Positions 10,093 to 26,739 of a DNA stretch of 32,733 bases are shown piece by piece. The DNA is from Oligoflexia bacterium (lineage in GTDB: Bacteria; Bdellovibrionota; UBA1018). The notes under the pieces are model-generated. The model was not told where the DNA came from. It ran no database searches and worked only from the letters and a program-made list of their open reading frames with translations. The DNA is taken from assembly GCA_903881565.1 (NCBI GenBank), contig CAIRTR010000307.1, positions 1-32,733 on the forward strand, given 5' to 3'. The translations under genes and the position numbers were made by a program. Position 1 is the first letter of the stretch. Each line of letters starts with the position of its first letter.

Positions 10093-11315
10093 CTAAATTT
10101 CTAAGAACCTCACCAATCGCTCACAGCCCGTTTTCAAAGCCTGCTCGTCGGTCGCAAAACTAATCCGAATACACTCCGGCTCGCCAAAGGGAGATCCCGA
10201 CATGACTGCGACTCCAGTCGCCCCAAGCAGCCTTTCGGCAAACCCAGAGGCATCTTCTTGTTCGCCATGATTTTGCTTGAGACATTCAGAAATCCCCACA
10301 AAAACATAAAACGCCCCCTGAGGTGCCACGACTCTTAGTTTGCGTGTTTTTGATAAAATTTCCAAGACAAGATCCCGCCTTGCCTTAAATCGCGCAATTT
10401 GGGGCGTGAATTCACTCTCCGCTATCCGGAGAGCCGCCAGGCATGCATCTTGCGCCAAAGCGTTGACGCCCGAAGTGCACTGTCCTTGAACAATACTCAT
10501 CGCGTCCGTTAGGTCTTGAGGCGCGACGGACCACCCTACCCGCCATCCCGTCATGGCCGCACTTTTGGAAACGCCATTAATGGTCACCGTATTTTGCTGA
10601 AGCTTAGGATTGGCGGCTAGAAACGAACAAAACTTCGAAGGCGCAAAAACAATTCGGTCATAGATCTCATCACTGATGACCCAGACTCCCGTATCCTCAA
10701 GAACCCGACCCAACGCTTGGAACTCTTCAGCCGAATACAGCGCCCCGTCGGGTTGCTGGGAGAATTTAAAATAATCGCTTTCACGCGAGGGCCAAGGCTT
10801 GAGCGAAGTTGTTCGGGCGTAAGCTTAAAACCTTGTTCAAAACGCGTGGGAAGAAACTTTGGAATGCCCCCGGCGAGTTTGACCATCTCCGGATAACTCA
10901 GCCAATAAGGAGCAGGGATCAGAACTTCATCCCCCGGCTCCAGCAGCGCAATAAACGCATTATAGAGCGCTTGTTTGGCGCCATTGGTGACGATCACCTG
11001 GGAAGCGTTCCACGCAATCCCCTGCGCATCAGAAGTCTTGCGCGCAATCGCCTCACGAAGTGGGACGATCCCCGGCACCGCAGTATACTTGGAGTGGTTG
11101 GCGCGAACTCCCTCTAAAACCGCCGCTTTCGCGGCTTCGGGAACATCAAAGTCAGGCTCCCCAGCGGTCAAATTGATTACATCTTCGCCCCGGGCCTTCA
11201 TCGCCTGCACCAGCGCATTGAGCTTCAATGTCGCACTTTCATGAATCCCGTCCAATCGAGAAGAGATCCTCTTTACACCCTGGCTTGCCGCAGGTGTCAC
11301 CTTATCTTTTTGCAT
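10093..11315 (-). pseudogene. aspB: Class I aminotransferase (aspartate aminotransferase, AspB type), frameshifted
   Basis: Two overlapping frames together make one PLP-dependent class I aminotransferase of about 407 residues, normal for the AspB/Ib branch that makes aspartate from oxaloacetate and glutamate. The first part (11315 to about 10747) has NLTAGEPDFDVPEAAK, HSKYTAVPGI, VTNGAKQALYN, and SPSNPTG; the second (from about 10742 to 10093) has WVISDEIYDRI, the PLP-lysine motif NGVSKSAAMTGWRVGW, and the C-terminal ECIRISFATDEQAL with the substrate-binding Arg. Reading breaks right after SPSNPTG: adding one base to the run of four C (plus strand 10743-10746) gives the family-like ALYSAEEFQALGRVLEDTG. 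So this is a one-base deletion, or an assembly error, in an otherwise intact gene. It sits 7 bp after coaD. Confidence 0.85.
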
Positions 11316-11322
11316 TCGCGCC

Positions 11323-11874
11323 TTACCTCTTCTTCCTACCCTGTAGGCCTTTTAGGCCTTTCAAACCTTGCAGCCTCTTCAAAACCCGAGGAGGAACGTA
11401 AGGCGTGATATCCGCCCCATACAGAAACAGTTCCTTGATCATTGAAGAACTCACAAAATAAAGATCCTGTGAGGTCATCATGAACAGGGTCTCGACCTCA
11501 GGATTCAGATTCTTGTTCATGCTCGCCATCATGAATTCGTACTCAAAATCGCTGGCCGCTCGCAATCCCCTGATGACCGCCGAGATCTGATGTTTCCGAG
11601 CGTACTCCATAATAAGTCCCGGCCAGAGATCCACGCGCACCCCCGGTCGATCCTTTGTCACTTCGCGAATCAGCTCAACCCGCTCTTCAGGCGAAAACAG
11701 GGGAGTCTTGTGACCCGTTCCGGCCACGACCACGACGACTTCAGGAAAAATCGCCAATGCCCGATCGAGAATATCAAGGTGACCATGGGTGATCGGATCA
11801 AAGGATCCTGGATAGACGGCACGCTGGGACTTAATCGCTTGGAGTTTTTTCGAGGTCTTTTGGGGTGCTGTCAT
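11323..11874 (-). CDS. coaD: Phosphopantetheine adenylyltransferase
   Basis: CoaD transfers AMP from ATP to 4'-phosphopantetheine, the penultimate step of coenzyme A synthesis, in the cytoplasm as a hexamer. The 183-residue product has the nucleotidyltransferase signature VYPGSFDPITHGHLDI, then SPEERVELIRE, VIRGLRAASDFEYEFMMASMN and VSSSMIKELFLYG, all in the right order. It is longer than the usual 160 residues at both ends: 18 residues precede the first strand, and the tail has a repetitive basic stretch, LQGLKGLKGLQGRKKR, from a short tandem repeat. The only start is the ATG at 11874, so the gene overlaps the end of rsmD by 44 bp. The rsmD-coaD pair is common in bacteria. Confidence 0.95.
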   Translation of the reverse strand: MTAPQKTSKKLQAIKSQRAVYPGSFDPITHGHLDILDRALAIFPEVVVVVAGTGHKTPLFSPEERVELIREVTKDRPGVRVDLWPGLIMEYARKHQISAVIRGLRAASDFEYEFMMASMNKNLNPEVETLFMMTSQDLYFVSSSMIKELFLYGADITPYVPPRVLKRLQGLKGLKGLQGRKKR

Positions 11875-12448
11875 GGGCGTGGGGGCTCTTTCTCCTGTAA
11901 CTCGTTAGAGCGCTCTCCCCATAGATTTTTTCCCGAACTTTAAACAAAAAAGGAAGTTCCTCAGGGAGCGCTTTTGTTTTGGATTGTTGCACACCCCACT
12001 CCAAACAGAAAGTCCCACCTTCAGCTAAGATCTTTTCCCAAGGAAGTTCCAAAAGCAGCCGATGGGTCCAATCTCCCGCATAGGGAGGATCGGCAAAGAT
12101 GAGATCATAGGGCCCTTTTTCGAGAATCAGCCCTAGAACCTCAAAAACGGAACCGCCCAGCACTTGAACTTGTGATTCAAGGTGAAATGCATGAATATTT
12201 TCTTCTAAGATTTTCTGGGCCGGGCGCGACGAATCCACCAGAACGGCACTTGCGGCTCCCCAGGAGAGCGCCTCAAACGCCAAAGCCCCGGAGCCTGAGA
12301 ACAAATCCAAGACGCGCGCGCCTTCGACCACGTTTTGCAGTGAATTAAAAAGGGCCTGCCTTAATCGTGATTGAGTGGGACGTGTCTGATCTCCTTTTGG
12401 AGCTTTAATAAGACGCCCTTTGAAGGCCCCCCCCGTGATGCGGATCAA
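11831..12448 (-). CDS. rsmD: 16S rRNA (guanine966-N2)-methyltransferase
   Basis: RsmD methylates G966 of 16S rRNA in the assembled 30S subunit using S-adenosylmethionine. The 205-residue product has the family opening MIRITGGAFKGRLIKAPKG followed by TRPTQSRLRQALFNSL, the SAM-binding motif VLDLFSGSGALAFEALSWGA, and the catalytic DPPY in IFADPPYAGD. Length is normal. The ATG at 12448 is two bases after the stop of the acidic gene, and the end runs 44 bp into coaD, so the genes are surely co-transcribed. The C-terminal 25 residues (SPHAHDSTPKDLEKTPSD) are hydrophilic and look like an unstructured tail created by the overlap. Confidence 0.94.
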   Translation of the reverse strand: MIRITGGAFKGRLIKAPKGDQTRPTQSRLRQALFNSLQNVVEGARVLDLFSGSGALAFEALSWGAASAVLVDSSRPAQKILEENIHAFHLESQVQVLGGSVFEVLGLILEKGPYDLIFADPPYAGDWTHRLLLELPWEKILAEGGTFCLEWGVQQSKTKALPEELPFLFKVREKIYGESALTSYRRKSPHAHDSTPKDLEKTPSD

Positions 12449-12450
12449 TT

Positions 12451-12948
12451 TCAGGCCACTCGGTGAAGATGACGTCTTGCAACAGGAATCTTAAACTCTG
12501 TGCCATCTGAGAGCTGCACATGAAAGACCTGCCCTGAGAAACTGACTGAGATTTCCTGGCCAAAACACTCATACTGGAGTCTCAGTGTCATATTCCCGGT
12601 TAGTTTCATGGAAAGCGTGCCATCTGAAGTATTTGAGGGGCTTTCAGCTACCGGAGAGGGATCATGATGTCTGATCGCCTCTACATCAGGCTCTACCTCT
12701 TCCGCCTCCGAGCCAGGTGGCGCTTCAATTTCCTGATAATTCTCAAGCTCTTCAATGGCAGCGGCAACTGACAACGCAGCCGGAACCTTATGGGGCTCAG
12801 CTTCTTCGGGGTGATGCGCAGCAGCAATGCCCTCGGGAGCCTCGACCTCTGAGCTCGCGGCTGACGTCGCGGCGTCCGTCGCGTCGATCTTTCCCTCAAG
12901 CTCTTCGATTTCATTGATGATCTTATTGATGTCTTCTTGTGCAGCCAT
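12451..12948 (-). CDS. Acidic protein of unknown function, first gene of the rsmD-coaD cluster
   Basis: About 165 residues. The first 110 are a highly acidic, Ala/Glu/Pro-rich and probably disordered region beginning with a coiled-coil-like segment (EDINKIINEIEELEGKIDA). The last 55 look folded and rich in beta strands: LTGNMTLRLQYECFGQEISV, then VFHVQLSDGTEFKIPV. No signal peptide or membrane segment is visible, so it is likely cytoplasmic. I do not recognise the family. The ATG at 12948 has GAGGTG 5 nt upstream; a GTG or ATG slightly earlier is open but lacks a site. The gene heads the minus-strand cluster, with a perfect TATAAT on its strand about 65 bp upstream. Confidence 0.68.
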   Translation of the reverse strand: MAAQEDINKIINEIEELEGKIDATDAATSAASSEVEAPEGIAAAHHPEEAEPHKVPAALSVAAAIEELENYQEIEAPPGSEAEEVEPDVEAIRHHDPSPVAESPSNTSDGTLSMKLTGNMTLRLQYECFGQEISVSFSGQVFHVQLSDGTEFKIPVARRHLHRVA

Positions 12949-12988
12949 ATCGCACCTCACTATCTAACCATTCGGTAGGAAGGGGATT

Positions 12989-13057: not shown

Positions 13058-13109
13058 GAATTTATTTTGTTTTTTTTCGCTCGCCAAATAAATTTTGAGG
13101 TTCTATCAC

Positions 13110-15809
13110 TTGGGGCTCTTGGAAAAACGGTTTGAGGGGAAACCAATTAGAACAATGGAACAGAGGAATCGCTCTGCAATTTTGCGATCATTATTAAATG
13201 ACCTTCCTGCTGCTCGCAATAACAGCCAGGCAAGAGAGTTATTGATTCCTCAAAGTGCGCCTTTCAACGCCAGCCTTGCAATTGCGCCAAGTGAAGCGCC
13301 CTCAAGCAACGGACTTTCTGCCTGTTTTCTCACCCTCAGGGATCAGATTACAGAAAAGCTTTTCACCCAACTCTCAAAATTACAGGCACTCAACCCCGGC
13401 AGAAGGATTGCTGTTTTTCGCTATCTCTGTGCCCTTTCCGGGGCTGAGGATACAGAAAACCAGGGCGACCTCACAAACTGGATCGCGCCTTCTCGAACTC
13501 CTACGCAAGAATTGGCCCTGAGAAGATATCTCGAAGAAGTCGCCACGATTTTTCTCGGGCAGTCCTTGGTTCTCAAAACCTGGTCTGACCGGGGCTTGCG
13601 CACCTGGAGCGAACAGGATTTAGGTCGCTTAAACTGGGCCCTCTCGCAAGCCCTCAAACCTTACGTTCCTCTGGACCGAGAGGGATGGTGGCTTACCAAC
13701 CGCAATCTCTATTCATGGTTTAATCCTGAGCCTGAGATGCAGCAACTCATTTGGAATACCCTGGAACCCCAGCGGATTGCCAATGAAGGCCCCGACAGCC
13801 TGCTTGCACTTCTCTCAAGCTCTTCGATTAAATCCCTCAAGCAACGCCCCCAAACCGGGTATGATTCTCGTTTCTTTAGCTCACTTTGGGAAAACCTCGC
13901 TTATGAGGAGCAGAGCCGTTTGCCGACGCTTCGAAAAACCAAAACTTGTTTTTCGCCCACCTTGCGAGATGGCGCGGTCGTGCGCACCGGCTCCGTTTCC
14001 ATGAGCTGGCTGGGCTTTGAAGCCAACCCCTTTCAATTGGCTTTGACAGAACTTGCGCAACTTTGGTGGGGCCCGTCCGCGCCTCCTCTTTGGACGCTCG
14101 GCACGGGCCTCGAAGCTCACCCTCGCGAGCAGATGAGCTTTTCACTGAGCTCCCCCAAACCCACGCTCACTTCTCAAGTGGCCGATATCGAATCGTGTGA
14201 CTTTGCCTTCGTCGTCGAAGAAACCGCCGTTCGCACCCAAGGCCGTTCGCTGGCTTCCCAGCGCTTCAAAGAGGAACTCGAAGGCCTACCCTATTTTGGC
14301 AAACTCAAAGAGGCAGGTACAACACTGGGAGATCTGCAGGCATGCGTGGCCCTGTCAAAAGTTCGCCCGGGCGGATCGTTCTGGTGGGCCAGAGAAACGC
14401 CGCTATCACCCTCGGATGGAAAAAACATTTTAAGCTGTCTTTTGGAAAAAGCGAAACTCGAAGTCGAATGGGATTTTTCAGGCGTCGAAGCTTTGTTTTC
14501 GGTAAAACGTCCGCTTTTCCCCTCGTACCTCTATCTTTTTGTTCGCGAACCCGAAGCCCAAAAGCGCCTCCACCACCGTCCGATAAGAATCGCGGCAAGA
14601 GGAGCGCTTCGCAGTCACGTTGAAGTCGCGCCGCTGCTTAAAGAAGCCCTCAGAGCCCGAAGCTCTGCTTTTGAAAACGCGATCGACGCGGCTTCTTCTC
14701 AACACTCAGGTCAGCTTCCGTCTCAGCTTCCGTGGCGGATTCAAAAGATCCAAAGCCCCACCTCACAGCGAGAATGGCTGGAGCATTGGCCCCTTCCCAC
14801 CTCGATGGAGATTCTGGGAAACCTTGAGAGACTAAAAACCGGATCCGTTCACCTCGCCACACTTGCAACCGTGCGAGCCTTCAATGCCGACACCCCTCAA
14901 GCGACCCTTCCCTCGTGTGGGGTCTGGCTACAGCCCTGCCTAAGCGCAACAGGCGAGCGCACCCTGGATGTTCGCCCCCTTCGAGCAGGGGCGGCGCCCT
15001 TAAGTGGGAGTGGCTTTATCATTTTGTTTCCCAATGAGACTTGGATCGCGCCTTTAACGGCCTATCTCAGTTCAAAAGATGTCGCAATGTGGCTGGATCA
15101 TCATGCGGAACGGAAACAAAAGCTTTGGGTGCTCTCCGAGCAAGGCGTAAGATGGATTCCGATTCCTAAGAGTTTTGCAAATGCCTTAGGCGCACAAACC
15201 ACCTTTGCCACGCCGCTACCAGGCCCGTGGGAACGCATTGCCTCTGAATTGGGAACAAAGCCTCAGGAAACGTTAGCGCTGCTCAACAAAGCCGAACCTT
15301 CAGATGAATCACAAAATGTAAAAGCGATGCTCTATGTGCGCGCATCACGGTTGCTTGAACAGGCAGAAGCTCGATTGTTTCAACTGCGGAGGCTCGTAAA
15401 CCGAGAAGGCCGAATTCAGTGGGCAGAACTTTTGAGAATTCTTCCAAAAGGCGAATCGGTGAGTTTCGCCCTCCATTCAGGAATCACGTTAAGTGGAAAC
15501 CTACCCTCGCACCATCCGATTAGCCAAATTCAGCAGCACAAAGGCTCCCAGCGACAGATCAATCTTTTTACCGAGGCCGGCCAAAATCTCGAAATCCAGG
15601 CTGATCCAGCGATATTGGCTGACATGCTCATGCAGCAGTTTGAAGGGACGAAGCACCCCACCTGGAGCGAGCTGATCGCAGAGATGCGTCTTCCCCGTAC
15701 GCTTGAACTTGCCGAGACCACAGCTTTTGAGGTCATTGAGAACCACAAAGAACAGACGAAAAAAATCGGTCTGCTTCGCGATTTTCTAGGCGGCTGTCCA
15801 CTTTATTGA
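13110..15809 (+). CDS. Large protein resembling an N6-adenine DNA methyltransferase without catalytic motifs
   Basis: About 899 residues, soluble, no signal peptide. No family is certain, but the order of weak motifs follows Eco57I/TaqI/PglX-type N6-adenine methyltransferases. A helical N-terminus runs to WENLAYEEQ and TKTCFSPT (13932-13960), comparable to the 'YTP' block. SWLGFEANPFQLALTELAQL (about 14004-14065) resembles the acidic motif after the SAM loop. CDFAFVVEE near 14200 stands where F-D-x-x-x-NPPY is expected, but NPPY is absent. LSKVRPGGSFWWARE (about 14354) resembles the 'LKPGG' strand. Near 15010-15180, IAPLTAYLSSKDVAMWL and VRWIPIP match the target-recognition ending 'LLNS...LPIP'. 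No glycine-rich SAM loop is visible. I chose TTG 13110, with GAGGT 8 nt upstream; ATG 13155 is the alternative. No restriction partner is nearby. The methyltransferase link is inference. Confidence 0.5.
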   Translation: MGLLEKRFEGKPIRTMEQRNRSAILRSLLNDLPAARNNSQARELLIPQSAPFNASLAIAPSEAPSSNGLSACFLTLRDQITEKLFTQLSKLQALNPGRRIAVFRYLCALSGAEDTENQGDLTNWIAPSRTPTQELALRRYLEEVATIFLGQSLVLKTWSDRGLRTWSEQDLGRLNWALSQALKPYVPLDREGWWLTNRNLYSWFNPEPEMQQLIWNTLEPQRIANEGPDSLLALLSSSSIKSLKQRPQTGYDSRFFSSLWENLAYEEQSRLPTLRKTKTCFSPTLRDGAVVRTGSVSMSWLGFEANPFQLALTELAQLWWGPSAPPLWTLGTGLEAHPREQMSFSLSSPKPTLTSQVADIESCDFAFVVEETAVRTQGRSLASQRFKEELEGLPYFGKLKEAGTTLGDLQACVALSKVRPGGSFWWARETPLSPSDGKNILSCLLEKAKLEVEWDFSGVEALFSVKRPLFPSYLYLFVREPEAQKRLHHRPIRIAARGALRSHVEVAPLLKEALRARSSAFENAIDAASSQHSGQLPSQLPWRIQKIQSPTSQREWLEHWPLPTSMEILGNLERLKTGSVHLATLATVRAFNADTPQATLPSCGVWLQPCLSATGERTLDVRPLRAGAAPLSGSGFIILFPNETWIAPLTAYLSSKDVAMWLDHHAERKQKLWVLSEQGVRWIPIPKSFANALGAQTTFATPLPGPWERIASELGTKPQETLALLNKAEPSDESQNVKAMLYVRASRLLEQAEARLFQLRRLVNREGRIQWAELLRILPKGESVSFALHSGITLSGNLPSHHPISQIQQHKGSQRQINLFTEAGQNLEIQADPAILADMLMQQFEGTKHPTWSELIAEMRLPRTLELAETTAFEVIENHKEQTKKIGLLRDFLGGCPLY

Positions 15810-15874
15810 CAGTCGTTCCCAAGGCATACCACCCCCTCTCTCATTGTTTCCAGCACTTACGCGGCGCGTCTCTT

Positions 15875-15890
15875 TGGCACCCCCCGTGCA
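15875..15890 (+). promoter_or_regulatory. Sigma-54 (-24/-12) promoter for the 15920 lipoprotein gene
   Basis: The site reads TGGCACCCCCCGTGCA. It matches all of TGGCAC at -24 and TGC with a flanking A at -12, with GG (15876-15877) and GC (15888-15889) exactly 10 bp apart. The predicted start of transcription is near 15901, which leaves a leader of about 19 nt carrying a GGAG ribosome site at about 15906 before the ATG at 15920. An NtrC-type activator is encoded 3.6 kb downstream. Confidence 0.65.
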
Positions 15891-15919
15891 TTCATCTCCA
15901 GCAGTGGAGTAGAATTTTT

Positions 15920-16627
15920 ATGAAGAAAATATTAAACAAATTTCCAAAGCATTCGAAGCACCCAAAGAGTTGGACCTGGATCACTCTAAGCCTTGCGACT
16001 GCAGTCTGGGCTTTCGGATGTGCACCTATAGCAGGGCCCCAATCCACGGTCCCCACCCCAAACCAACCGACAATTAGCCATGACACAACGGGCACACTGC
16101 CGCTGCCAACGGCCTCCCCCTATCCAATGGTTCCCATCAGTTCCTTGGACCCTAATGCCACGGATGTCTCGGCAATCTCGGCAGACGCCTTAGCCGCTAT
16201 GGTTGGAACCTTTGGCGGAACGTTGACAAAAACTGAGACCTCCCAGAAACAGGCCTATACCTTCACCATTATAAAAGAACTGCCCGCGGCCCCTGCAAGC
16301 CAATATCCGATGTATTTGAGACTCAGCTTTCAATCCAATGGACCGATCGGCAACATCGCATTTTCTTCAAGGCTTACCATGGGATTCAACGGATTCCCTG
16401 TCAACTTCAACCAATCCTATAGCTTTACGACACTCGCACAGGAGTTTCCGGTGCTGATGGACAATTCATTCCTTGTCCAACTCATCATGTCGGTAAAGAA
16501 CGGCAATTCATTCGATCCGACACAGTCTCAGATTTTCATCAAAGACTGTGGGTTTTCCCAAGGCCTTGTTTGCACAAATACGGCAACAGAGGTCCTTTTT
16601 AACAAGGACTTGGGAAAGCTGCCTTAA
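15920..16627 (+). CDS. Lipoprotein of unknown function, probable sigma-54 target
   Basis: About 235 residues. The lysine-rich N-terminus (KKILNKFPKHSKHPK) is followed by a hydrophobic core and a lipobox ending AFGC at about residue 33, then a Pro/Thr-rich linker (STVPTPNQPTISHDTTG) that may span from the membrane to a folded domain of about 150 residues. That domain is beta-rich and uncharged (LRLSFQSNGPIGNIAFSSRL, MGFNGFPVNFNQSYSFTT) with two late cysteines. No family recognised. The frame is open back to 15806, but the ATG at 15920 has GGAG upstream, a signal peptide and a promoter placed to fit. A strong terminator follows, so it is a single-gene unit between the methyltransferase-like gene and the two-component block. 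Confidence 0.75.
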   Translation: MKKILNKFPKHSKHPKSWTWITLSLATAVWAFGCAPIAGPQSTVPTPNQPTISHDTTGTLPLPTASPYPMVPISSLDPNATDVSAISADALAAMVGTFGGTLTKTETSQKQAYTFTIIKELPAAPASQYPMYLRLSFQSNGPIGNIAFSSRLTMGFNGFPVNFNQSYSFTTLAQEFPVLMDNSFLVQLIMSVKNGNSFDPTQSQIFIKDCGFSQGLVCTNTATEVLFNKDLGKLP

Positions 16628-16741: not shown

Positions 16742-17533
16742 ATGCTGGGCGCAGAGATGCGTGAACAGACCTGGAACCTCCGCCAAGCGACGACTCATCA
16801 TTTTCTGAGTTTTCAGAACCTGTTGGATTTTCACGACCTCACTTCTTCCTGGCTTAAAGAGTTGAACATCGAGCGGGCGCCCCATTTACTTTCCAGAGGA
16901 ATCAGTCACCACTATCCCGAAAGCGTTGCCATGCTTGAACTCTTGGCGTCTCGTGAGCTCGGGGCCTTTTTAGATGACACCGCGCCTGAGGACATCTTGG
17001 GCAGACTCGAAAACACCGTTTGGATTGTGCAGGCTTGGACTCTTAAGAGTATCCTTGAACGATCTGGCGAACGATCTGGCGAACGTTCAGGAGATCAGCC
17101 GCAAGACAACGCAACGAGCACGCTCGAGAGCGTGCTTGAGCAAACCTCTTGGAAAGAAGGACGGCGAATCGGAGAGCAACGCTGGTCGAATCGAACCCAT
17201 CGAGGGGAATCCGATTTGCGACCTCTTCGTTCAGCTCTAGCCGACAGTCCGTTCCGGGGAAACACTTTTAATCGCCCTGTTGAAGATCTTTTTATTCTGA
17301 AACGAGCGCTCAGACATGAGGTCAGTTTGGAACTTTGCGCCTGTCCCCATCGCGTCTCGGTTCCTGAAGTCCAATCCGTCGAAGATCTCCTGTGTCGGCT
17401 CCATGGTCAATGGATGCGAGGGTTTCTCTACGCCCTCAACAATCAGATCCATGTCAAAACTGAGTTCGCACGTCCCCGGTGCACCCAGACCTGGTCCCTT
17501 CAGACTCCGCCTGATTTGCAGGGGCCCCCATGA
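16742..17533 (+). CDS. Cysteine-containing V4R-like protein, first gene of a sigma-54 regulatory operon
   Basis: About 263 residues, no signal peptide or membrane segment. The C-terminal 130 residues recall V4R/Bet3-like small-molecule-binding domains and the related thiazoline-carboxylate hydrolase-like family: SWKEGRRIGEQRW (136-148), LELCACPHR (Cys199, Cys201), LLCRLHGQWMRGFLYAL (Cys218) and KTEFARPRCTQTWSL (Cys247). In V4R proteins the last part reads roughly 'G..GF......V...E..C...G...C.F'. The N-terminal half is helical with no match. A 36-bp tandem repeat encodes ERSG three times at 106-117. The stop overlaps the kinase start (ATGA), so translation is coupled. The likely job is to sense or transmit a signal to the kinase and activator; the domain call is tentative. 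ATG 16742 was used; ATG 16757 is possible. Confidence 0.6.
   Translation: MLGAEMREQTWNLRQATTHHFLSFQNLLDFHDLTSSWLKELNIERAPHLLSRGISHHYPESVAMLELLASRELGAFLDDTAPEDILGRLENTVWIVQAWTLKSILERSGERSGERSGDQPQDNATSTLESVLEQTSWKEGRRIGEQRWSNRTHRGESDLRPLRSALADSPFRGNTFNRPVEDLFILKRALRHEVSLELCACPHRVSVPEVQSVEDLLCRLHGQWMRGFLYALNNQIHVKTEFARPRCTQTWSLQTPPDLQGPP
17057..17138 (+). repeat. 12-bp tandem repeat followed by an intragenic hairpin
   Basis: GAACGATCTGGC occurs at 17057-17068 and 17069-17080, with a diverged third copy at 17081-17092, encoding ERSG repeats. Twenty-five bases later AGCACGCTC (17117-17125) and GAGCGTGCT (17128-17136) form a perfect 9-bp stem with a 2-base centre, extendable through G-T and C-G pairs. 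Both lie inside the V4R-like gene. Copy number could vary by slippage without breaking the frame. Confidence 0.8.
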
Positions 17534-25380: not shown

Positions 25381-26739
25381 ATGACTCGCTTGAAACAAGC
25401 ATTACCGATCCTCACATTGCTTGCCGCCCTCACAACCCTCTCCCTCAGCGCGGCTGCCTCCCCCTCCTCAATTTGGACTGCAAAAAACTTCTGGTCCATG
25501 GAGTGGGAACAACGCTACACCGCATTTGTCCAAAGCGAACTCTCACCCTCATTCTTGAAAGAACTTGAGATCCCCAGCGATTGCGCGGACCTCCCCGTGA
25601 TTGTTCGAGCGATCTTTTCAAGAATCAATGAACTCCCGTTCGCGCTTGAGCAAGGACCAGCACATACACAATCGAGCGCACTCCCCACCACAACTTGGAA
25701 CCCCACAACCTGGAAAAATAACCTTCGCGAAGATCCTCGATTCAAAGCATTTCTGAAAACCATCTCCCAAAACACAAACACCTCAAACCTCGGAAAATCC
25801 CTCTACCCAATCCAAATCAGCGACTCCATTAACGGCAGCGCCTCTCTCGCCTCCAGCGTTCGCCCCGGACTCGTAGCCCTCACCGAGCATCACGCGCGCG
25901 TGATCTGGAAAATCACTCCCAATCAATGGCGATCCATCTGGGAACTAAGCTCCACCGTCCCCTATGCTGTGCGAACACTTCAAATCAACGATCTGAGTAT
26001 CGACGACTACCCTGCATCCCCTCGCGAAGGGGGCCTGCTTGCTTTTCGCTGGCCTGAGGCCTGCGGCAGCAAATGGTGCCTGCGTGCCCCTGATAAAATG
26101 CCCGGATACTCGATGGAACAATACAGGATCCCAAAACCCGACGCGCCTCTTGAGCGATGGTTAGAAGATAGCTTTCGAGACACCGGCGCACTTTTTCAAG
26201 TCGGGACCTTCTCCGACACCCTCCAAGCTCTCGCCAGGATCGCAGGTTACGGCGACCCAACTGAAAAAGATTTCTCCGTGATCTTAGACGAGATCTTCGC
26301 TTCTCTTACGCTGAGGCAAGACACTTTAAAGAAATGCGATGCCCTGCTCACTTCAGGCCGCATTGGGAACCGAGCAGCGTTTGAGTTCAATTGCTCGACC
26401 GAAAATAGGGATGGCGAGCTCGCACGAAAACTTCGAAGGCTCATGGATCTGGGGCACTTCGCCGGGAGAATGGGCGAGATGGAAACTCGGCTCGGACAAC
26501 ACGTGATCCCGATTGACGAGCACAGGAAAACAGACGCCTATCAGTTTTTTCTCGCCAAATCTGAGCACGAAATTTCAGCCGTACCCTACGACTCCGCTCT
26601 TAAGAGGTGGGGCTGGGCGTTTCTCATGAAGCGAGCGCAGGGAATGCTCGCGTTGTCCCAAGAATCTCCGGAACAAGCGCAGGCGCTGGCTTCGGAAATC
26701 AAGACACTCAGAGATTACGGGCAAATTGGAACCCCTTAG
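25381..26739 (+). CDS. Exported protein of unknown function
   Basis: A 452-residue protein with a clear signal peptide (QALPILTLLAALTTLSLSAAA, cleavage near AAA-SPSS). The mature part is mostly helical with a few conserved-looking Trp clusters (WTAKNFWSMEWEQRY, TTTWNPTTWKNN, ITPNQWRSIWELS) and seven scattered cysteines, some close together (ACGSKWCLRAP), which could form disulfides in the periplasm. I see no catalytic signature and no domain I can name. The ATG at 25381 is supported by the promoter 10 bp upstream and by the signal peptide; a leaderless transcript would explain the missing ribosome site. It is followed by two hairpins and then the convergent ppiD-like gene. Confidence 0.72.
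   Translation: MTRLKQALPILTLLAALTTLSLSAAASPSSIWTAKNFWSMEWEQRYTAFVQSELSPSFLKELEIPSDCADLPVIVRAIFSRINELPFALEQGPAHTQSSALPTTTWNPTTWKNNLREDPRFKAFLKTISQNTNTSNLGKSLYPIQISDSINGSASLASSVRPGLVALTEHHARVIWKITPNQWRSIWELSSTVPYAVRTLQINDLSIDDYPASPREGGLLAFRWPEACGSKWCLRAPDKMPGYSMEQYRIPKPDAPLERWLEDSFRDTGALFQVGTFSDTLQALARIAGYGDPTEKDFSVILDEIFASLTLRQDTLKKCDALLTSGRIGNRAAFEFNCSTENRDGELARKLRRLMDLGHFAGRMGEMETRLGQHVIPIDEHRKTDAYQFFLAKSEHEISAVPYDSALKRWGWAFLMKRAQGMLALSQESPEQAQALASEIKTLRDYGQIGTP

Follow-up and report, generated by a model that had tools for sequence, protein, structure and literature searches.

The closest described relatives of the protein studied here are the Eco57I-type, type IIG and gamma N6-adenine DNA methyltransferases (BpuSI, MmeI, M.BseCI, M.TaqI, CamA and PglX/BrxX), with which it shares the motif order X-I-II-III-IV and, in the predicted fold, a Rossmann core followed by a recognition-like half. 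Unlike these enzymes, the pseudo-methyltransferase has lost NPPY in all members and the SAM-binding loop in most, has no visible nuclease domain or restriction-modification partner, and is a single-copy core gene at a fixed locus. Restriction-type DNA methyltransferases usually come and go between strains. METTL14, which has EPPL in place of DPPW, is a precedent for a degenerate N6-adenine methyltransferase with a non-catalytic, nucleic-acid-binding role (PMC5023411). The likeness to METTL14 lies in the degenerate methyltransferase fold being kept for a presumably non-catalytic role; METTL14, however, belongs to another lineage and pairs with active METTL3 on RNA, whereas the pseudoenzyme has no known active partner paralog. 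For MocR, the presence of a syntenic, divergently transcribed gene has been taken as a hint that a protein of enzyme fold regulates its neighbour (PMC4944035). The pseudo-methyltransferase has in common with MocR/GntR regulators an enzyme-derived fold and an adjoining, divergently transcribed gene, but MocR has a separate winged-helix domain and the pseudoenzyme would contact DNA by its old recognition half. No description of the family was found in the papers searched, and none of the curated families covers the window's clade.

The window (the whole stretch of DNA analysed, 32,733 nucleotides) holds the pseudo-methyltransferase as an open frame at 13095–15809 (+). The original prediction had read this gene as a probable dead N6-adenine methyltransferase with a recognition-like C-terminus. 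Our data support this reading and extend it to a conserved family of pseudoenzymes that goes back to N6-adenine methyltransferases of restriction type and is kept as a core gene across several families. We regard the methyltransferase ancestry, together with the loss of the canonical motifs, as nearly certain. A restriction-type methyltransferase appears to have lost its chemistry and settled as a single-copy gene at a constant chromosomal position in several families of a phylum of predatory and uncultured bacteria, where selection on it matches that on housekeeping genes in strength.

The gene, its motif places and predicted fold

The frame is single copy and uninterrupted, with 904 amino acids from TTG 13095, as expected from the claim that the gene is long and intact. 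Its codon use, predicted to be like that of the neighbours, correlates with the pooled window genes at r = 0.78 (0.37–0.79 with single neighbours; 0.55 and 0.34 for the wrong frames). A promoter-like element, TTTTTTTTCGCTCGCCAA-N16-TATCAC, is conserved just upstream (13070–13109, +). The bipartite pattern, TT..CTCGC[CA] followed 18–19 bases later by TAT[CT] or GGTA, occurs in about 12 orthologs of family f1, and the orthologs sharing it are only about 40–45% identical to the window's protein; judged from its sequence, the element may act as a promoter. In the genome, CTCGCCA-N16..19-TATCA has three occurrences versus two for the reversed control. The element core, TTTTTTCTCGCCAAA, is found exactly at 26545–26559 (+), inside the open frame 25381–26739. 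Because the conserved element ends at 13109, the start codon is probably the in-frame ATG 13155 downstream of it rather than TTG 13095 or TTG 13110, and the likely coding sequence is 13155–15809 (+), about 884 amino acids.

The window protein has no match in Pfam, NCBIfam, PADLOC, PHROGs or the PDB sequences. The PDB sequence search gave no match with a 27-member profile either, and the Pfam and NCBIfam methyltransferase profiles have no match in 17 members of the window's class. Viral origin was rejected, the single viral match being weak.

Motif places were defined on an alignment of the 27 closest homologs, with residue numbers counted from 13110, and in this alignment the motif order of Eco57I/TaqI/PglX enzymes, as originally proposed, can be followed along the protein. 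The N-terminal helical domain has the signature LNPxRR (13389–13406, +; residues 94–99), of which N95 and R98 are invariant in the 27 members and in 17 more distant ones. The motif X place, NLYSWF (13704–13721, +; YTP-like, YSWxxP near residue 202), aligns with the stretch preceding motif I in Pfam-positive orthologs; S202 and W203 are invariant to class level. At the motif I place (13953–13979, +), SPTLRDGAV stands instead of DPAxGSGxF, and the SAM glycine loop, already reported as not visible, is replaced by PTLRDG (residues 283–288). The motif II place, WLGFE (14007–14021, +; WxGxE, residues 300–304), retains its acidic residue and is followed by the motif III place, GTGLE (14100–14114, +; GxGLE, residues 331–335). 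The motif IV place is CDFAFVVEET (14196–14225, +; CDxAFVxEE, residues 363–371). The assignment of CDFAFVVEE near 14200 to the NPPY site proved correct, with VEET (14214–14225) at that place and both E370 and E371 invariant in the 27 members. After motif IV comes the LKPGG-like strand KVRPGG (14358–14375, +; KxRPGG, residues 417–422). The entry to the recognition-like half is SPxxQxEWxxxW (14757–14789, +; P550–W560), with P550, Q553, W556 and W560 invariant in the alignment. Its end, SxxVxxWLDHxAERKxxxWxLxEQxxxxIPIP (15072–15167, +), includes a W..H..ER...W.L.E....IPxP tail at residues 661–686 and aligns with LNSxxxxFWYxxxG...LKxIPIR of the Pfam-positive orthologs.

The core is the most conserved region, and T284 L285 R286, E370 E371, Q410, K417, R419 and R428 are invariant in the 27 members. 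In the window's order, these invariant T-L-R, E-E, Q, K-R and R residues could make up a new active site, the pocket having been rebuilt to serve a different ligand or reaction. However, the class families f2, f7 and f8 lack most of them even though the gene is homologous there (in f7 at the same locus), and a rebuilt pocket is improbable. At the other end of the protein, several members of families f5 and f7 (e.g. L025, L026, L028, L074 and L109) finish with G[LMF]LQ, possibly a tail motif common to the two families.

The AlphaFold model built from the 27-member alignment has a mean pLDDT of 82 and a pTM of 0.65. Among PDB structures, Foldseek ranks N6-adenine DNA methyltransferases highest: 7eew (E = 7.7e-11), BpuSI (4.8e-10) and M.BseCI (6.8e-9), then LlaBIII, CamA, M.TaqI and PglX/BrxX. 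The Foldseek probability is 1.00 for 7eew, BpuSI, M.BseCI, CamA and M.TaqI, at domain level only. Whole-chain TM-scores are low (0.18–0.30 by query length) and the rmsd is mostly high; HsdM-like 2okc has a TM-score of 0.55 by target length with an rmsd of 6.6. Such low TM-scores and high rmsd would be expected if the domains are placed differently. For f15, the clade that has diverged most, the model (pLDDT 72.5) matches M.BseCI first, then HsdM, BpuSI, MmeI and M.TaqI. The comparison with methyltransferase folds thus matched both the Rossmann core and the recognition-domain fold at domain level, and the matches run across the DNA-binding half of the solved enzymes.

Ancestry and loss of the catalytic motifs

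Intermediate sequences, predicted structure and conserved gene order all support an origin in an Eco57I/TaqI-type (gamma) N6-adenine DNA methyltransferase whose catalytic and cofactor motifs have since been lost. The window-clade profile has no significant match to five active methyltransferases of related genomes (probability 0.75%), this direct comparison finding the LRPGG strand only, and the ancestry therefore rests on the intermediates and the fold. The intermediates are orthologs of families f11, f12, f17 and f19. Profile alignment, in which each E-value is that of a single comparison and not of a database search, joins them to the window's class with a probability of 100 and E = 4.9e-58 over 801 columns, and to the 27 closest members with E = 1.1e-39. 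Orthologs of f11 and f12 exceed the Pfam cut-off for Eco57I (to 4.2e-16), and most also those for N6_Mtase and MmeI_Mtase. The intermediate orthologs align with active methyltransferases in turn (probability 99.3, E = 1.6e-20, 285 columns), with DPAMGSGNF over DPACGSGAF and CCPPE over GNPPY. A tblastn search with one of them matched N-6 DNA methylases annotated in Thermus as well as type IIG enzymes from viruses of haloarchaea, and the PDB sequences gave a weak match to BrxX (E = 0.005). Chance likeness of motifs in one sequence was rejected on the family-wide conservation and the intermediates, with homologs in 55/58 genomes of the class.

The proposed recognition-like C-terminus is backed by the end-to-end profile alignment, by structure matches of about 500–770 columns and by weak TaqI_C matches, which occur in orthologs only (E = 0.0012 to 0.034; 15–20 bits against a Pfam cut-off of 26.5), but it is less strongly supported than the core.

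Neither NPP[YFW] nor, at the catalytic place, [DNS]PP followed by an aromatic residue is present in any of the 50 aligned members. The SAM motif is retained in four of them (L123, L124, L125 and L129). On the earlier question of whether all homologs have lost NPPY and the SAM loop, NPPY is gone throughout, but the SAM loop is kept in these four distant orthologs, with the pattern DP[AT]xG[ST]GNF. The SAM glycines and NPPY are both missing in every tested member of the window's class. The f11 and f12 orthologs keep DPxMGSGNF or DPACGTGNF and have CPPE or APPE at the NPPY place; in f17 and f19 the SAM motifs are partly decayed (NPIAGAGSL, NLCAGSGQF and NLCASSGFF). In an unrooted tree the members of these four families fall outside the window's class. 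The order of loss is visible because the orthologs preserve intermediate stages, with the SAM motif present and NPPY gone. On the simplest reading, the loss of catalysis would predate the divergence of these families, with later decay of the SAM loop in more than one line. The starting point would have been a type IIG/Eco57I-like N6-adenine DNA methyltransferase. It would have lost NPPY first, in the common ancestor of every sampled member, and the SAM-binding loop afterwards, in the window's class, while its Rossmann core and recognition-like C-terminal half were kept.

A still-active methyltransferase using non-canonical motifs would fit the retained fold and the canonical SAM motif of the four distant orthologs. 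With [NDS]PP plus an aromatic residue in 0/50 members at the catalytic place, and the window's class without a glycine loop, we consider this very improbable; methylation has presumably ceased. Because these catalytic and cofactor features were looked for and found missing, the window protein should not, from its sequence, be filed as an N6-adenine methyltransferase.

Distribution, selection and gene order

The pseudo-methyltransferase is present in 36/40 related genomes and in 55/58 genomes of the window's class, nearly always as a single copy; two or three matches occur in a few genomes, mostly because a contig end truncates the gene or one match is split. Two of the three class genomes lacking a match are incomplete assemblies (56% and 75%). 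The third, G013, likewise gives no match to coaD; its assembly therefore probably lacks the locus. Three phylum searches combined found orthologs in 159 of the 291 sampled Bdellovibrionota genomes: 55 of the window's class, nine of f11, f12, f17 and f19, and 95 of f15. The sequence link of f15 to the family is weaker (probability 97.7, E = 1.4e-12 by profile alignment), and its membership was accepted because gene order confirms it. All named homolog records are metagenome-assembled genomes, most of them labelled Bdellovibrionales, Oligoflexia or Bacteriovoracaceae. The f2 ortholog at L095 (2356–5201) is broken into two overlapping frames, probably by a frameshift or an assembly error.

In close pairs dN/dS is 0.024–0.041, similar to or below the values for the aminotransferase, CoaD and RsmD in the same pairs; the ratios are approximate because dS is near saturation in some pairs. 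The gene had been thought not to be decaying, and decay to a pseudogene is indeed ruled out by a dN/dS of 0.02–0.04 together with near-universal presence in the class. Purifying selection of this strength indicates a maintained pseudoenzyme.

Gene order has been conserved through long vertical inheritance. In the window, the divergent neighbour is an acidic protein of unknown family (cluster 4; 12451–12960, −), present in 31 loci; a further family of the phylum has a homolog in the equivalent position (L145). The cluster-4 gene is followed by an rsmD-like 16S rRNA methyltransferase gene (11831–12448, −; Pfam PF03602, 6.7e-45), a divergent neighbour across clades, and by coaD, encoding pantetheine-phosphate adenylyltransferase (11323–11874, −; TIGR01510, 190.8 bits, cut-off 103.3). 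The window neighbours include RsmD, CoaD, the aminotransferase and two-component genes. In class loci, the opposite strand upstream carries the aminotransferase, coaD and rsmD genes and that of the cluster-4 protein; downstream come the cluster-5 protein, often a ChaN-like protein, and a histidine kinase/NtrC pair. The window's class, f12 and f15 all have the gene divergently adjacent to rsmD-coaD-aminotransferase; in f11 and f19 the cluster is nearby, with one to a few genes between. In the two-contig f15 genome G064, the pseudo-methyltransferase is accompanied on its own side by a ChaN-like gene, and the other side carries coaD, rsmD and the gene of a small acidic protein; the PF04187 assignment for f15 was called on the locus sister to that of G064. 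No restriction, BREX or DISARM genes were found among the scanned neighbours, in line with the earlier statement that none adjoins the gene.

RsmD acts alone in well-studied bacteria. The families f10, f13 and f18 have the rsmD-coaD-aminotransferase cluster without an adjoining pseudo-methyltransferase, and the recognition half resembles that of DNA enzymes. These points make it quite unlikely that the protein is a non-catalytic partner of RsmD in ribosome or RNA modification, as METTL14 is for METTL3, a role that would suit the divergent position of rsmD in most clades and for which a degenerate partner methyltransferase offers a precedent (PMC5023411).

Downstream lies a conserved protein of unknown family (cluster 5; 16742–17533, +), which has no Pfam match. 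The gene follows the pseudo-methyltransferase in 30 loci, at a median of 339 bases and mostly on the same strand. A large ChaN-like (PF04187) protein follows in f15 and in many class loci (e.g. L144 5214–6845 and L074 9872–11488). The dead fold could accordingly be a protein scaffold that holds the cluster-5 and ChaN-like proteins in a complex and binds no nucleic acid. The cluster-5 gene, the ChaN-like gene (directly after in f15, just downstream in many class loci) and the weak recognition-domain matches would agree with this. The window itself has no adjoining ChaN-like gene, the sole PF04187 match of its genome being on contig C57, and the fold matches extend over the DNA-binding half of the solved enzymes; we therefore consider a scaffold unlikely. 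It is followed in falling order by the RsmD partner, the rebuilt pocket and residual activity.

On balance we favour a pseudoenzyme with a non-catalytic nucleic-acid-binding role, which would hold nucleic acid without catalysis. DNA is the more likely ligand, since the fold, recognition-like half included, is that of DNA methyltransferases. The pI is 6–9 across members and not uniformly basic; this mixed pI and the weak TaqI_C matches give no independent proof of DNA binding. A less certain form of the favoured role, suggested by the promoter-like element and by the conservation of the divergent gene pair, is that of a sequence-specific DNA binder regulating the divergent promoter region that its gene shares with rsmD-coaD-aminotransferase. 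That a restriction-type methyltransferase became such a core-genome regulator before many families diverged is only a tentative and rather unlikely proposal, and a stable position on the chromosome may by itself account for the divergent synteny. Should it bind DNA, the protein would represent a novel type of core regulator or chromosome protein.

Three further features of the locus were seen. The cluster-5 proteins (about 235–260 amino acids) have a CP..LC..W..GF..C pattern that by eye recalls V4R or ATC-hydrolase-like domains. A putative lipoprotein frame (15806–16627, +), with a lipobox-like stretch by eye and homologs in seven loci, begins at the stop codon of the pseudo-methyltransferase frame. 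The aspartate-aminotransferase-like gene (10093–11315, −) is split into the overlapping frames 10617–11315 and 10093–10713, each matching one half of the family, by a frameshift or an assembly error; the orthologous loci have a single frame.
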